Source of the DNA: Lentzea sp.
GTDB taxonomy: Bacteria > Actinomycetota > Actinomycetes > Mycobacteriales > Pseudonocardiaceae
Direction: 5' to 3'
DNA length: 15,205 nt
Assembly (NCBI GenBank): GCA_030146905.1
Contig: JASLAV010000326.1
Coordinates: forward strand, 1-15,205
In this document: piece by piece, positions 303 through 3,386 of the stretch
Layout: every line of letters starts with the position of its first letter
Position numbering within the stretch: the stretch's first letter is position 1
Made by a program: the position numbers and the translations under genes
Notes under the pieces: model-generated
Databases searched by the model: none
The model's input: only the letters and a program-made list of their open reading frames with translations
Told to the model about the DNA's origin: nothing

Positions 303-602
303 TCAGGCGACCGCGATCTCCACCGCGTGCACGCCGGGGCCCTCGGCGGAGACGTCCGCCTGGCCGTTGCCCGTCCTGTGGAGTGCTCGCACGGTCCACG
401 AGCCGGGGGCCGCGAAGAAGCGGAAGTCGCCCTCCGGGGAGGAGACGACCTCCGCGGTGAACTCGCCGGTCGAGTCCAGCAGGCGGACGAACGCGCCGCC
501 TACCGGGGTGCCGTCGGCCAGGACCTTGCCCTCCAGCACCGTTTCGCTGGTCGAGACGTCGACAGAGCCGCCTTGAGCGGGTGCGCCGCAGCCGTTGCTC
601 AT
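303..602 (-). CDS. sseC: DUF1416 family protein, SseC-like
   Basis: A 99-residue protein of the DUF1416 family, called SseC in mycobacteria, where it is the constant downstream neighbour of the CysA2/CysA3 thiosulfate sulfurtransferases. Its biochemical role is not established; a part in sulfur metabolism is inferred from this linkage. The sequence reads as a small beta-sandwich of the transthyretin or carboxypeptidase-regulatory type (VLEGKVLADGTPVGGAFVRL, then a GDFRFFAAPGSWTVRAL strand pair). It has one cysteine at residue 5 in a flexible N-terminus (MSNGCGAP). The ATG is preceded by a clear GGAGG. Only 5 nt separate it from the stop codon of the sulfurtransferase gene, so the two are translationally linked. 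It is the last gene of the operon and is followed by the hairpin at 249-285. Confidence 0.92.
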   Translation of the reverse strand: MSNGCGAPAQGGSVDVSTSETVLEGKVLADGTPVGGAFVRLLDSTGEFTAEVVSSPEGDFRFFAAPGSWTVRALHRTGNGQADVSAEGPGVHAVEIAVA

Positions 603-607
603 GGTGA

Positions 608-1453
608 TCAGGCCTCCTTGCCGGAACCGAGCTCGATCGGCACGCCGATGAGCGAGCCGTACTCCGTCCACGAACCGTCGTAGTTCTTCACGTCTTCGTG
701 GCCCAGCAGCTCGCGCAGGGCGAACCAGGTGTGCGAGGAGCGCTCGCCGATGCGGCAGTACGCGATGGTCTTGCGGCTGCCGTCGAAGCCCGCTTCCGCG
801 TAGAGCGCGCGGAGCTCCTCGTCGGACTTGAACGTGCCGTCCTCGTTGGCCGCCTTGGACCACGGGACGTTGACCGCCGACGGGATGTGGCCGCCGCGCT
901 GGGCCTGTTCCTGCGGGAGGTGGGCCGGGGCGAGGAGCTTGCCGGAGAACTCGTCGGGGGAGCGGACGTCGACGAGGTTCTTGTTGCCGATGGCCTCGAC
1001 GACCTCGTCGCGGAAGGCGCGGATCGAGAGGTCCTGCTCCTTGGCCTGGTAGGTGGTCGCCTCGCGGGTGACCTCCTCCTTGTCCAGGGGGCGGCCGTCG
1101 AGCTCCCACTTCTTGCGGCCGCCGTCGAGGAGCTTCACGTTCTCGTGGCCGTAGAGCTTGAAGTACCAGTAGGCGTAGGCGGCGAACCAGTTGTTGTTGC
1201 CGCCGTAGAGGACGACCGTGTCGTCGTTGGAGATGCCCTTGGCCGAGAGCAGCTTCTCGAAGCCCTCGCGGTCGACGAAGTCGCGGCGCACCGGGTCCTG
1301 GAGGTCGTTCTTCCAGTCGATCTTGACGGCGCCGGGGATGTGACCGCCGTCGTACGCGGTGGTGTCCTCGTCGACCTCCGCGAAGACGACGCCGGGCGTC
1401 TGGAGGTTCTCCTCGGACCAGGCGGCCGAGACCAGCACGTTCTCACGGCTCAT
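608..1453 (-). CDS. cysA2: Thiosulfate sulfurtransferase, two rhodanese domains (CysA2/SseA type)
   Basis: This 281-residue tandem-rhodanese protein transfers sulfane sulfur from thiosulfate to thiophilic acceptors through a persulfide on the active-site cysteine. The N-terminal domain (about 1-125) is catalytically silent: the active-site loop region reads LYGGNNNWFA with no cysteine. The C-terminal domain (about 150-275) carries C233 in CRIGERSSHTWF, the loop I know from mycobacterial CysA2/CysA3. Both domains show GGHIPGAV / GGHIPSAV substrate-path motifs. The length matches the mycobacterial protein. The ATG is preceded by AGGAG with 9-nt spacing. It is the second structural gene of the operon, 29 nt after DUF4395, and is probably under the cysteine leader at 1992-2069. 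The cytosolic location is inferred from the absence of a signal peptide. Confidence 0.95.
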   Translation of the reverse strand: MSRENVLVSAAWSEENLQTPGVVFAEVDEDTTAYDGGHIPGAVKIDWKNDLQDPVRRDFVDREGFEKLLSAKGISNDDTVVLYGGNNNWFAAYAYWYFKLYGHENVKLLDGGRKKWELDGRPLDKEEVTREATTYQAKEQDLSIRAFRDEVVEAIGNKNLVDVRSPDEFSGKLLAPAHLPQEQAQRGGHIPSAVNVPWSKAANEDGTFKSDEELRALYAEAGFDGSRKTIAYCRIGERSSHTWFALRELLGHEDVKNYDGSWTEYGSLIGVPIELGSGKEA

Positions 1454-1482: not shown

Positions 1483-1920
1483 TTATTGCGGGCGGGCGAT
1501 TGCGGGGGCGTACCGGCGCAGCAGCAGGTACATCTCGCACCCGAGGCACAGGCCCAGCGCGGCGTTGAGCAGCGCTGCCACCAGTGCCAGGCCGGTCGCG
1601 ACCATGCCGAGCGCGGTGAGGCCGGTTGCGTAACCGAGGGTGCCGATCAGTGCGAACACGAACCCGACGCCCTGCGCGAACCGCAGCGGGGCTGCTTCCT
1701 CGCGTTCGGTGGTCGGGGTGAGGCGCGGCTGGACCGCGAAGCGGTAGACGTGTCCCCACGGGTTGAGCTTCAGCGAGATGAACGCGCACATCGCGAAGAG
1801 CACCGTCTGGGCGGCGAGGAGACGCCACCAGCCGGTGAGCAGCACGATCGCGAGGATGATCGTGGTCATCCAGGCGGAGAAGCGCGGTCCGCGCGGGTCT
1901 ACAGGGGAGTCCTTGGGCAC
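1483..1920 (-). CDS. DUF4395 integral membrane protein
   Basis: A 145-residue membrane protein of the DUF4395 family; its molecular function is not known. Four hydrophobic segments are visible: about 17-33, 36-51, 84-108 and 109-128. The family's hallmark di-cysteine motif, CLGCEMY, lies at residues 125-131 at the end of the last segment and suggests redox chemistry or sulfur/metal handling at the membrane. The start is GTG at 1920, chosen because GGAGG lies 5 nt upstream; no better start exists. It is the first structural gene of the sulfur operon, upstream of a rhodanese, which fits a sulfur-related role (inference). The start codon and the bases just before it (1917-1925) are complementary to the 3' end of the upstream cysteine leader ORF, so translation of this gene is probably the attenuated step. 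Confidence 0.88.
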   Translation of the reverse strand: MPKDSPVDPRGPRFSAWMTTIILAIVLLTGWWRLLAAQTVLFAMCAFISLKLNPWGHVYRFAVQPRLTPTTEREEAAPLRFAQGVGFVFALIGTLGYATGLTALGMVATGLALVAALLNAALGLCLGCEMYLLLRRYAPAIARPQ

Positions 1921-2005
1921 GACGACCTCCGGGCAAACGGACGATTGCGTTCAGTCCGGCAGAGGTTGCTGACGAGCGTCAAGCGGCTCGATCAGCTCGT
2001 CGTGC
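1917..2005 (-). promoter_or_regulatory. Candidate cysteine-responsive attenuator pairing
   Basis: On the minus strand the last codons of the leader ORF contain GCACGACGA (1997-2005). Its exact complement TCGTCGTGC (1917-1925) covers the spacer and GTG start codon of the DUF4395 gene; after one mismatch two further pairs reach into the GGAGG. A ribosome stalled on the second cysteine codon (2007-2009) would mask the first arm and free the start codon. Fast translation and release would let the arms pair and block initiation. A smaller hairpin (1970-1981, TGAC/GTCA arms) lies between them. The pairing is seen in the sequence; the mechanism is inferred by analogy with mycobacterial polycysteine leaders. 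Confidence 0.55.
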
Positions 2006-2069
2006 GACACAGGCTGCTGCGCACGCGGCACAGATCAACCGCGCGTCGCTTCGTGAGCAGCATGGTCAT
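1992..2069 (-). CDS. Cysteine-containing leader peptide (uORF)
   Basis: A 25-codon ORF running from ATG at 2069 to TGA at 1992-1994. The product starts MTMLLTKRRAVDLCRV and continues with SSLCR, so the family pattern VDLCR...LCR is complete with cysteines at 14 and 21. Short peptides with this pattern are recurrent in actinobacteria in front of sulfur-assimilation genes. In mycobacteria, polycysteine leaderless ORFs upstream of such operons act as cysteine-responsive attenuators (established knowledge). Here it sits 71 nt upstream of the DUF4395-rhodanese-sseC operon. It has no Shine-Dalgarno, but TACCCT lies 7 nt before the ATG, so the transcript probably begins at the A of the start codon. 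The peptide itself is unlikely to have a separate function. An alternative start at the third codon is possible. Confidence 0.8.
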   Translation of the reverse strand: MTMLLTKRRAVDLCRVRSSLCRTTS

Positions 2070-2076
2070 GCCAGCG

Positions 2077-2082
2077 AGGGTA
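2077..2082 (-). promoter_or_regulatory. -10 element of the leaderless leader-ORF promoter
   Basis: TACCCT on the minus strand fits the actinobacterial TAnnnT -10 consensus. Exactly 7 nt separate it from the ATG at 2069, placing the transcription start at or next to the A of the start codon. No convincing -35 hexamer is visible, which is common in this group. This would be the main promoter of the sulfur operon. Confidence 0.65.
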
Positions 2083-2148: not shown

Positions 2149-2556
2149 TTAGGGCAAATGCGGGCGAAGGGCGTCCATGAGCGAGTCGCGTTTCGGCACG
2201 CCGCCGACTCGCAGCAACTCGGTGCCGTCGGACGCTAGGGCCAGCGTCGTCGGGGTGCGCATGACGCCGAGCTGTGCGGCGACGTCGGGGAGGTTCGTGA
2301 CGTCCAGCTCGGCGTGGGTGAGGCCTTCCGTGCGGTCGGCGAGGTCGCGCAGAACGACCTTCGCGTGCCGGCACGGCGCGCAGAACGTGGTGGAGAGCTG
2401 GACCAGCGTCACCCCCGGCGCGAGCAGGTCGCGCACGGGGGCCGGCAGGTCGGACTCGGCTTCACGGCGGGAGATGCGGCCCTCGCGGATCTTGAGCAGC
2501 ACTGCGACCGCGCCGGCCACGGCCAGCGCGCCCAGCAGCGCCCACACACCTGTCAT
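2149..2556 (-). CDS. thiX: Membrane-anchored thioredoxin-like protein
   Basis: A 135-residue protein with one N-terminal membrane segment (about 4-22) followed by a short thioredoxin fold. The redox motif is CAPC at residues 59-62 (STTFCAPCRHAK) and the conserved cis-proline follows a threonine in RTPTTLAL (P102). Substrates are unknown; thiol-disulfide exchange is the expected chemistry. With N-terminal anchoring the domain's side of the membrane is not certain: the KIREGR stretch after the segment suggests a cytoplasmic face by the positive-inside rule. The ATG overlaps the lmeA stop codon (ATGA, 2553-2556), so translation is coupled. The equivalent M. tuberculosis gene next to lmeA is Rv0816c, named thiX; the symbol is transferred on synteny. 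It is the last gene of its operon. Confidence 0.88.
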   Translation of the reverse strand: MTGVWALLGALAVAGAVAVLLKIREGRISRREAESDLPAPVRDLLAPGVTLVQLSTTFCAPCRHAKVVLRDLADRTEGLTHAELDVTNLPDVAAQLGVMRTPTTLALASDGTELLRVGGVPKRDSLMDALRPHLP

Positions 2557-3386
2557 CGCTGGCTCAACGGTACATCCGCGATCTCGCCGCTGAGCTTGAA
2601 CGAACCGCTCTCCACCTCGACGGCCGTGGGCGTCGCGCCGAACGGCAGCGTGCCGGGGTCGATCTTGATCGCGAGCGCCTGGCGCAGCTGCGGGACGATC
2701 TGCTTCAGCGAGGCGTCGTTCAGCTCGATGTCGTCGATGTTGATCTGGATCGCGCCGCTGACCAGTGCGATCTGCCCGTACGCGGTGAGCGTCACGACCT
2801 TGCCCGCGACGTTGGTCTCGCCGGAGAGCTTGAGCGCGGCGGTCGTCTTGGGCGCCTTCGGGTCGGCGGGAACCGGTGCGGCGACGCGGTTGTCCGGCTC
2901 GATCGAGAGCTTGTCGAACGGCGTCACCTGGTTCGCGAGCCGGTTCAGGTCGAGCGCCTTGATCCGCACGCTGCCCTTGACCGTGTCGATGGTCGCCTTG
3001 GAGACGTTGCCCGCCAGCAGGTCGGCGAGCTCGACGCGGGTGTGCAGCAGGTCGGCCTCGATGTCGAGGTCGCGCAGGTCGACGCCCTGCTGCTCGTCCT
3101 TGATCGGCACGCCGTACGCGCGGATCTCCACGTGCTGGTAGTCGCCGCGCAGCGCCTGGAGGGTGAACGGGAACCCGTTGATCCGCACCGACGGGTCCTC
3201 GTCGAGCTGCAGCTTCTCGCGCATGCGCTGGGCGATCTGGTACTCGCCCGCCGCCGCCAGCGCGAAGTCGGCCGCGACGAGCAGCACGCCCAGCACGATC
3301 ACCGTGATGACGAGGAACTTGCCGCGCCTCGACTTCTTCCTCGGCCTGGCGCGGGCCGGGGTCTGGCCGGAAAACCCTGCAGTCAT
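2553..3386 (-). CDS. lmeA: LmeA family (DUF2993) phospholipid-binding protein
   Basis: A 277-residue DUF2993 protein. The mycobacterial member LmeA (Rv0817c) is a periplasmic lipid-binding protein needed for mannan chain elongation of lipomannan and lipoarabinomannan. Here a basic N-terminus (ARPRKKSRRGK) precedes one membrane segment at about 24-45, then a long beta-rich outer domain (VRINGFPFTLQALRGDYQHV, then LRDLDIEADLLHTRVELADL) typical of the family, so it is exported and anchored. Synteny with glnR and mshD supports orthology. The ATG at 3386 is preceded by AAGGA with 8-nt spacing. It begins 16 nt after the hydrolase stop and overlaps the thioredoxin start by 4 nt. A role in lipoglycan assembly in this organism is inferred. 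Confidence 0.9.
   Translation of the reverse strand: MTAGFSGQTPARARPRKKSRRGKFLVITVIVLGVLLVAADFALAAAGEYQIAQRMREKLQLDEDPSVRINGFPFTLQALRGDYQHVEIRAYGVPIKDEQQGVDLRDLDIEADLLHTRVELADLLAGNVSKATIDTVKGSVRIKALDLNRLANQVTPFDKLSIEPDNRVAAPVPADPKAPKTTAALKLSGETNVAGKVVTLTAYGQIALVSGAIQINIDDIELNDASLKQIVPQLRQALAIKIDPGTLPFGATPTAVEVESGSFKLSGEIADVPLSQR

Follow-up and report, generated by a model that had tools for sequence, protein, structure and literature searches.

A two-cysteine leader peptide with a preferred UGU codon upstream of a DUF4395-rhodanese-sseC operon in Lentzea

How could a leader peptide with only two separated cysteine codons report the cysteine supply to a sulfur operon, and which of the two codons would act as the sensor? 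This question is raised by a locus of Lentzea sp. (contig JASLAV010000326.1). It lies in a window of 15,205 nucleotides, which is the whole stretch of DNA that was analysed. The features of the locus are as follows.

2553..3386, minus strand: LmeA-like gene upstream (PF11209)
2149..2556, minus strand: thioredoxin-like gene upstream, in the ThiX position (PF00085)
2077..2082, minus strand: -10 element TACCCT, 7 nt before the ATG (sequence; TANNNT spacing in relatives)
1992..2069, minus strand: putatively leaderless leader-peptide ORF, 25 codons plus stop (ORF list; NF042934 over its cut-off; conservation)
1926..1930, minus strand: Shine-Dalgarno GGAGG of DUF4395 (sequence)
1483..1920, minus strand: DUF4395 gene (PF14340; E 3e-44)
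608..1453, minus strand: rhodanese / thiosulfate sulfurtransferase gene of CysA2 type (E 2e-35, two matched stretches)
303..602, minus strand: SseC-type gene (PF07210, DUF1416; E 9e-40)

The leader ORF and its family

Inspection of the minus strand found an ORF from an ATG at 2069 to a TGA stop at 1994-1992, with cysteines at codons 14 and 21 only and no contiguous cysteine codons. The 7-nt gap between TACCCT and the ATG at 2069 has no Shine-Dalgarno sequence, and an Rfam scan of the window gave nothing at gathering scores. These features agree with the original prediction, which had described the ORF, its distance of 7 nt from TACCCT, the two cysteine codons and the lack of a Shine-Dalgarno. 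Its placement of the leader between the thioredoxin gene and the sulfur operon was likewise borne out by the coordinates and the domain matches of the neighbours. The spacing between the -10 element and the ATG fits a leaderless start and is conserved among relatives. Of 71 loci, 70 carried TANNNT at 6-8 nt from the start codon (ATG 50, GTG 20). The spacing was 7 nt in 63 loci, 6 nt in 6, 8 nt in 1 and absent in 1; because the script chose the start with TANNNT 5-9 nt upstream that was closest to 7, the count of exact sevens is biased upwards. We infer that transcription starts at or beside 2069.

The window peptide matched two NCBIfam models. It scored 31.5 bits with NF042934 ('putative leader peptide', cis_reg_atten), over the curated cut-off of 27, and 39.6 bits with NF042933 ('Ms5788A family Cys-rich leader peptide', an equivalog), under the cut-off of 45. 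Two models match the ORF, so it does not lie beyond annotation; it had been called too short for ordinary gene finders. In addition, the window leader has the position of an Ms5788A-family leader: it precedes a cysA2-type operon and follows the thioredoxin and LmeA genes. LmeA-thioredoxin is, we take it, the gene order at the mycobacterial locus. In tblastn searches of the 30 loci with the best NF042933 hits, the rhodanese was present at all 30, DUF4395 and LmeA at 28 each, and the thioredoxin at 27. By this gene order (thioredoxin, LmeA and rhodanese neighbours), the window leader and the mycobacterial cysA2 leader already in the literature are orthologues, a closer relation than the merely related locus first supposed. 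The leader is of an already known kind; the additions of this study are the orthology, the ordinary status of the two-cysteine form, and codon 21 as the likely sensor with its particular codon choice.

The family is widespread. Of 200 genomes in the same family, NF042933 matched 195 at E <= 0.01, in all 46 of 46 genera. Only 2 genomes had a match over the cut-off, and 1 of 14 control genomes gave a match, below the cut-off. With NF042934 at E <= 0.001, 258 of the 394 class genomes had a match, which passed the cut-off in 229, and 0 of 14 controls did. A sample of the phylum gave a leader match in 15 of 198 genomes. Fourteen of these 15 lie inside the class, and the single match outside it (G642, L309; below the cut-off) looks false. 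A further family sample had a match in 59 of 60 genomes. The genomes of another group (f21) carry up to 14 NF042934 matches each.

Lentzea accounts for most of the nearest named loci. In the nearest genome compared (G001, a Lentzea genome with 27% of sampled words in common with the window), there were 4 motif sites. The 2 over the cut-off belong to the DUF4395-rhodanese and the nitrite/sulfite reductase operons. The leaders of this genome other than that of DUF4395 (L002, L003 and L004, near position 1501 of each locus) stand before nitrite/sulfite reductase, FMN reductase and a sodium:dicarboxylate-family symporter, and the whole is a small cysteine set of operons. Furthermore, a relaxed motif search found the leader before 73 of 79 named DUF4395 loci, and a stricter search, with the window counted in, recovered it at 71 of 80 loci. 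In the six relaxed-search misses, L117, L140 and L149 had no candidate, and L131, L135 and L148 had low-scoring candidates only; L140 has just 62 bases upstream and so is not judgeable. Short ORFs are frequent, and 15 ORFs of at least 20 codons overlap 1700-2400, so that a chance ORF had to be considered. The presence of the leader in the 73 named loci and the match to a curated family make this explanation practically negligible, and it was rejected by conservation. The prediction of a leaderless cysteine leader peptide before DUF4395, rhodanese and sseC thus gains support from three sides: the family matches, the synteny of the locus and its conservation.

Two cysteines and a conserved peptide

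At least three adjacent cysteines were found in 19 of 20 parsed loci of one family (f2, a family of the same order, taken to be the mycobacterial family) versus 1 of 93 loci elsewhere (L061). The form VD[LF]CRVx[ST][SA]LC or near variants was found in Pseudonocardiaceae and as far afield as Actinomadura, Planotetraspora and uncultured actinobacteria. Leaders with two cysteines, to which a third is often added (C-x-C), are thus the widespread form. The two separated cysteines had been regarded as a departure that would need a different sensitivity. This view is unsupported, since the two-cysteine form is the common one, and 'only two' therefore calls for no special account. The picture that such a leader needs a cysteine run is corrected accordingly. 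One DUF4395 leader (L138) lacks the second cysteine (RRAVDYCRCDS, then stop) and may be damaged, misassembled or of a different form.

Several described systems resemble the window leader in part. According to PMC4633059 (2015), a cysteine-cluster uORF with ribosome occupancy lies upstream of cysA2 (Rv0815)/Msmeg_5788, and cysteine attenuation was proposed. The Ms5788A leader (NF042933), like the window leader, precedes a cysA2-type rhodanese at an orthologous locus and has its cysteines at the end, and the core LTKRRAVDLCR is common to the window leader and the mycobacteria-like loci. However, the window leader has two separated cysteines and no run, and DUF4395 stands between the leader and the rhodanese, unlike at the Ms5788A locus. 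Polycysteine leaderless ORFs reportedly respond to cysteine (Canestrari et al. 2020, doi 10.1111/mmi.14498, as cited in PMC13236596, PMC9094748 and PMC9031893), and PMC13236596 terms their control translation attenuation. In PMC8632094, the short uORF of the uORFC-8-2 motif, upstream of cysS in Rhodobacterales (Alphaproteobacteria), also conserves two cysteine codons, but there the cysteines are tandem, UGC is dominant and an intrinsic terminator is present. Like the mycobacterial polycysteine ORFs, the window leader lies upstream of sulfur genes and would be leaderless; unlike them, it has no contiguous tract and a single position that looks like the sensor. Canestrari et al. in 2020 reportedly described such mycobacterial polycysteine leaderless short ORFs upstream of cysteine genes. 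There, ribosome pausing would free the downstream ribosome-binding site.

The peptide itself is conserved. For 68 non-redundant leaders, numbered with the first R of RRxVDLxR as 0 (Cys6 is then codon 14, and Cys13 is codon 21), the L was kept in 67, and R, D and R were each kept in 68. Their codons vary: R0 is written with five codons, and D with GAC in 44 and GAT in 24. Conserved residues with free synonymous codons suggest that selection acts on the peptide. The predominance of AGC at Ser10 may be a historical relic, because AGC cannot change to TCN by one silent step.

Conservation at the peptide level would be expected of a working small protein that acts in trans. Beyond Cys21, however, neither the sequence nor the length of the peptide is constant, and the motif precedes different sulfur operons, which makes such a product very improbable. 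The same residues bear on nascent-chain arrest. In that case LTKRRAVDLCRVxSSLC would act inside the ribosome tunnel, and stalling at codon 21 would depend on the peptide and not only on the supply of Cys-tRNA. The residues are held at a fixed spacing before the sensor cysteine while their synonymous codons are free, and the motif is conserved across several operons and 22 family labels; a simple hungry-codon device would not need it. By eye, no known arrest motif was recognised in the peptide. We regard such arrest as a serious but tentative possibility, and it is compatible with translational attenuation.

Codon choice at the two cysteines

2028..2030, minus strand: cysteine codon 14 (UGC, TGC in DNA), within the conserved RRAVDLCR motif (TGC 213 : TGT 5 in loci with Cys here)
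2007..2009, minus strand: cysteine codon 21 (UGU, TGT in DNA), proposed sensor codon (TGT in 74/74 unique Pseudonocardiaceae leaders of the same operon type)

NF042934 is a broad domain-type protein model and therefore cannot record codon choice, which was counted in sets of loci chosen by peptide or neighbouring gene and not by codon. Of 270 loci with a cysteine at position 13, 268 spelled it TGT, and Cys6 had the ratio of 213 to 5 given above. This set left out 9 loci without the motif and 3 low-scoring loci, and two of the 9 (L075 and L078) had TGT earlier. The first count had given TGT at Cys13 in 112 of 113 parsed loci, with 17 of 130 loci unparsed by the motif and thus omitted. In a later set of 53 parsed loci, some of which repeat earlier places (the motif was not found in 2 of 55), Cys13 was TGC in 15 and not a cysteine in 1, and 10 of the 15 TGC loci were Pseudonocardiaceae nirA leaders. 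A universal UGU at codon 21 was rejected on this set. Because of these exceptions, the claim was narrowed to the DUF4395/rhodanese operon type.

The leaders were then counted by unique 57-mers, with identical 57-mers merged and L309 (the false hit) and L138 (no Cys13) dropped; named loci were assigned to Pseudonocardiaceae by hand from titles, and L127, from a Kutzneria assembly, stayed in the 'elsewhere' group. In the DUF4395/rhodanese operon type, codon 21 was TGT in all 74 Pseudonocardiaceae leaders and in 66 of 67 elsewhere, where the exception (L308) has several cysteines. The nirA leaders of Pseudonocardiaceae had TGC in 11 and TGT in 1, and those elsewhere had TGT in 14 of 14. Between this operon type and nirA within Pseudonocardiaceae, the Fisher P was 5e-13, uncorrected for shared descent. 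The UGC nirA leaders of Pseudonocardiaceae are L324, L329, L330, L332, L337, L338, L340, L341, L347, L286 and L002. Symporter leaders (7/7) and FMN reductase leaders (2/2) all had TGT. Leaders before other genes had TGT in 7 and TGC in 4 in Pseudonocardiaceae, and TGT in 61 of 61 elsewhere. Three of these four TGC leaders (L345, L349 and L350) precede a membrane protein that resembles, by eye, a TauE/SafE sulfite exporter/permease.

The bias was also found in 94 leaders of less than 85% identity, where Cys13 was TGT in 83 and TGC in 11, and Cys6 was TGC in 35 and TGT in 5. In the same leaders, the invariant Asp was GAC in 61 and GAT in 33, and His was CAC in 47 and CAT in 10. Their downstream ORFs were defined by the longest open frame, a rule that may have misjudged a few. 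They had TGC 209 times and TGT 53 times, so that UGU makes up about 20% of their cysteine codons. The original prediction had proposed aligning the regions upstream of DUF4395 to see whether the cysteine codons are conserved. Both recur, with codon 21 nearly fixed as UGU and codon 14 mostly UGC. Such a codon choice was not found in the surveyed portions of PMC8079986, PMC4633059, PMC13236596, PMC9094748, PMC9031893, PMC8632094 and PMC11109978. The codon pattern is the new part relative to this partly covered literature, and Canestrari et al. 2020 could already contain it.

Judged by sequence, the two cysteines are not equivalent: codon 21 is near-fixed as UGU and adjoins a segment complementary to the downstream start, and codon 14 is UGC. 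One explanation of the fixed UGU is a constraint on the RNA (pairing, or a protein or polymerase signal) and not on decoding. The base after codon 21 is constrained as well, being a pyrimidine in 87 of the 94 leaders versus 125 of 262 cases after the cysteine codons of the downstream ORFs. However, in the best duplexes of 127 loci the third U was paired in 48% versus 69% and 57% for its neighbours, a C would pair with G at least equally well, and adjacent synonymous sites vary. An RNA-level constraint is therefore possible but doubtful.

Pairing with the downstream start and a possible mechanism

1997..2005, minus strand: arm GCACGACGA, one base after UGU21, complementary to the downstream start region (9/9 pairs)
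1917..1925, minus strand: target UCGUCGUGC, the spacer after the Shine-Dalgarno and the DUF4395 GUG start (9/9 pairs with the arm; consensus fold)
1925..1966, minus strand: second possible hairpin, which also holds the Shine-Dalgarno (ACCUC..CGGAC / GUCCG..GAGGU; read from the sequence)

A hairpin at the place of 1925..1966 was present in the Lentzea consensus fold. In 31 unique loci (the window and L080-L130), the helix of GCACGACGA and UCGUCGUGC had 9 pairs in 9 loci and 8 pairs in 5; the Lentzea/Saccharothrix register was lost in the other 17, with at most 7 pairs. In Saccharothrix, changes from A-U to G-C and from A-U to G-U kept the pairing, and these exchanges may be one event each. Distant genera use other pairings.

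The duplex signal over many loci is an average. Duplex and masked-folding runs used the 117 of 127 non-redundant loci whose gene start lies 25-260 nt past the leader. The 18-nt segment from the UGU codon favoured its own start region over those of other loci by -1.79 kcal/mol (z -4.8, 117 loci). Segments at offsets of -3 to +6 share this signal (z -3.7 to -4.8), those at -6 and +9 do so weakly, and leader segments further up or down had no signal in the same 117 loci. In the 72 loci of this operon type, z was -4.2 and the own partner was better in 46. A coarser run with all 127 loci gave z -3.5 at the same place. Another candidate, a leader stop codon within an anti-Shine-Dalgarno (CCUGA/UCAGG), was found in 14 of 127 loci versus 9.4 expected (P 0.046); it is weakly supported and absent in the window. 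In L273, L203 and L029, for example, a CCUGA that contains the leader stop can pair with the UCAGG of the Shine-Dalgarno.

Masked folding assumed a ribosome footprint of 17 bases before the A-site codon and 13 from its first base on. In the window, the predicted access to the start was 0.14 without a ribosome, 0.27 (still low) when one was placed at codon 21, and again 0.14 when it was placed at codon 14. Even with a ribosome at codon 21, the second hairpin would continue to sequester the Shine-Dalgarno. Over the 117 loci, a ribosome at UGU21 gave a small gain versus none (+0.028, t 2.9, 69/117). Placing it there and not on the first cysteine brought no further gain (mean difference +0.009, t 0.87, 61/117 positive).

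We consider translational attenuation with UGU21 as the sensor to be the best reading, and a likely one. A leaderless mRNA would start at or beside 2069 and open with the leader ORF. Ribosomes would translate RRAVDLCR and then reach the UGU at codon 21. When Cys-tRNA is ample, they would continue to the stop and leave the leader; GCACGACGA would then pair with the spacer ahead of DUF4395 and with its GUG start, the second hairpin would sequester the Shine-Dalgarno, and the operon would be translated poorly. When Cys-tRNA is short, a ribosome would halt with UGU21 in its A site and cover the segment after the UGU, so that the start would be freed and DUF4395, the rhodanese and SseC would be made. 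The start-hiding segment would be occupied by a ribosome that waits at UGU21, but not by one at codon 14. The sequence itself gives the ORF, its -10 spacing, the identity of family and locus, the conserved peptide register, the codon bias at position 21 and the complementarity; the stalling, the response to cysteine and this direction of control are what we infer from it.

Stalling could alternatively choose between an antiterminator and an intrinsic terminator, as in classical transcription attenuation, a common design for amino-acid leader peptides. No result here points to it. A simple pattern scan of 1850-2250 found no terminator-like site, and the complementarity targets the ribosome-binding site. 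We therefore regard transcription attenuation as improbable.

Within translational attenuation, the spelling of the codon, and not the number of cysteines, might set the sensor. A UGU followed by a pyrimidine is plausibly the slowest spelling of cysteine, owing to wobble and codon context. A single cysteine tRNA species is the norm in bacteria, and thus differences in isoacceptor charging give no explanation for the codon choice. A single UGU with its pyrimidine, at a fixed distance from the conserved nascent peptide, would then be the stall site. UGU would be the weakest cysteine codon, and a UGC at codon 14 fits a quick passage of ribosomes to the sensor. Operons of one cell differ in this codon (in Lentzea, UGU before the rhodanese operon and UGC before nirA) and would thereby give a graded response to cysteine shortage. 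The UGC of the Pseudonocardiaceae nirA leaders suggests that UGU is not strictly required; it favours tuning by operon, or else drift in a leader that is controlled in another way. We put this idea forward as plausible, if short of probable.

By its sequence, the leader probably lets the bacterium raise its sulfur genes when cysteine is short. The locus raises the question of whether a one-base synonymous change from UGU to UGC alters the cysteine sensing of the cell. The answer would separate hungry codons alone from a tuned codon behind a conserved nascent peptide in actinobacteria, and it would also bear on why the sulfur operons in one cell differ.
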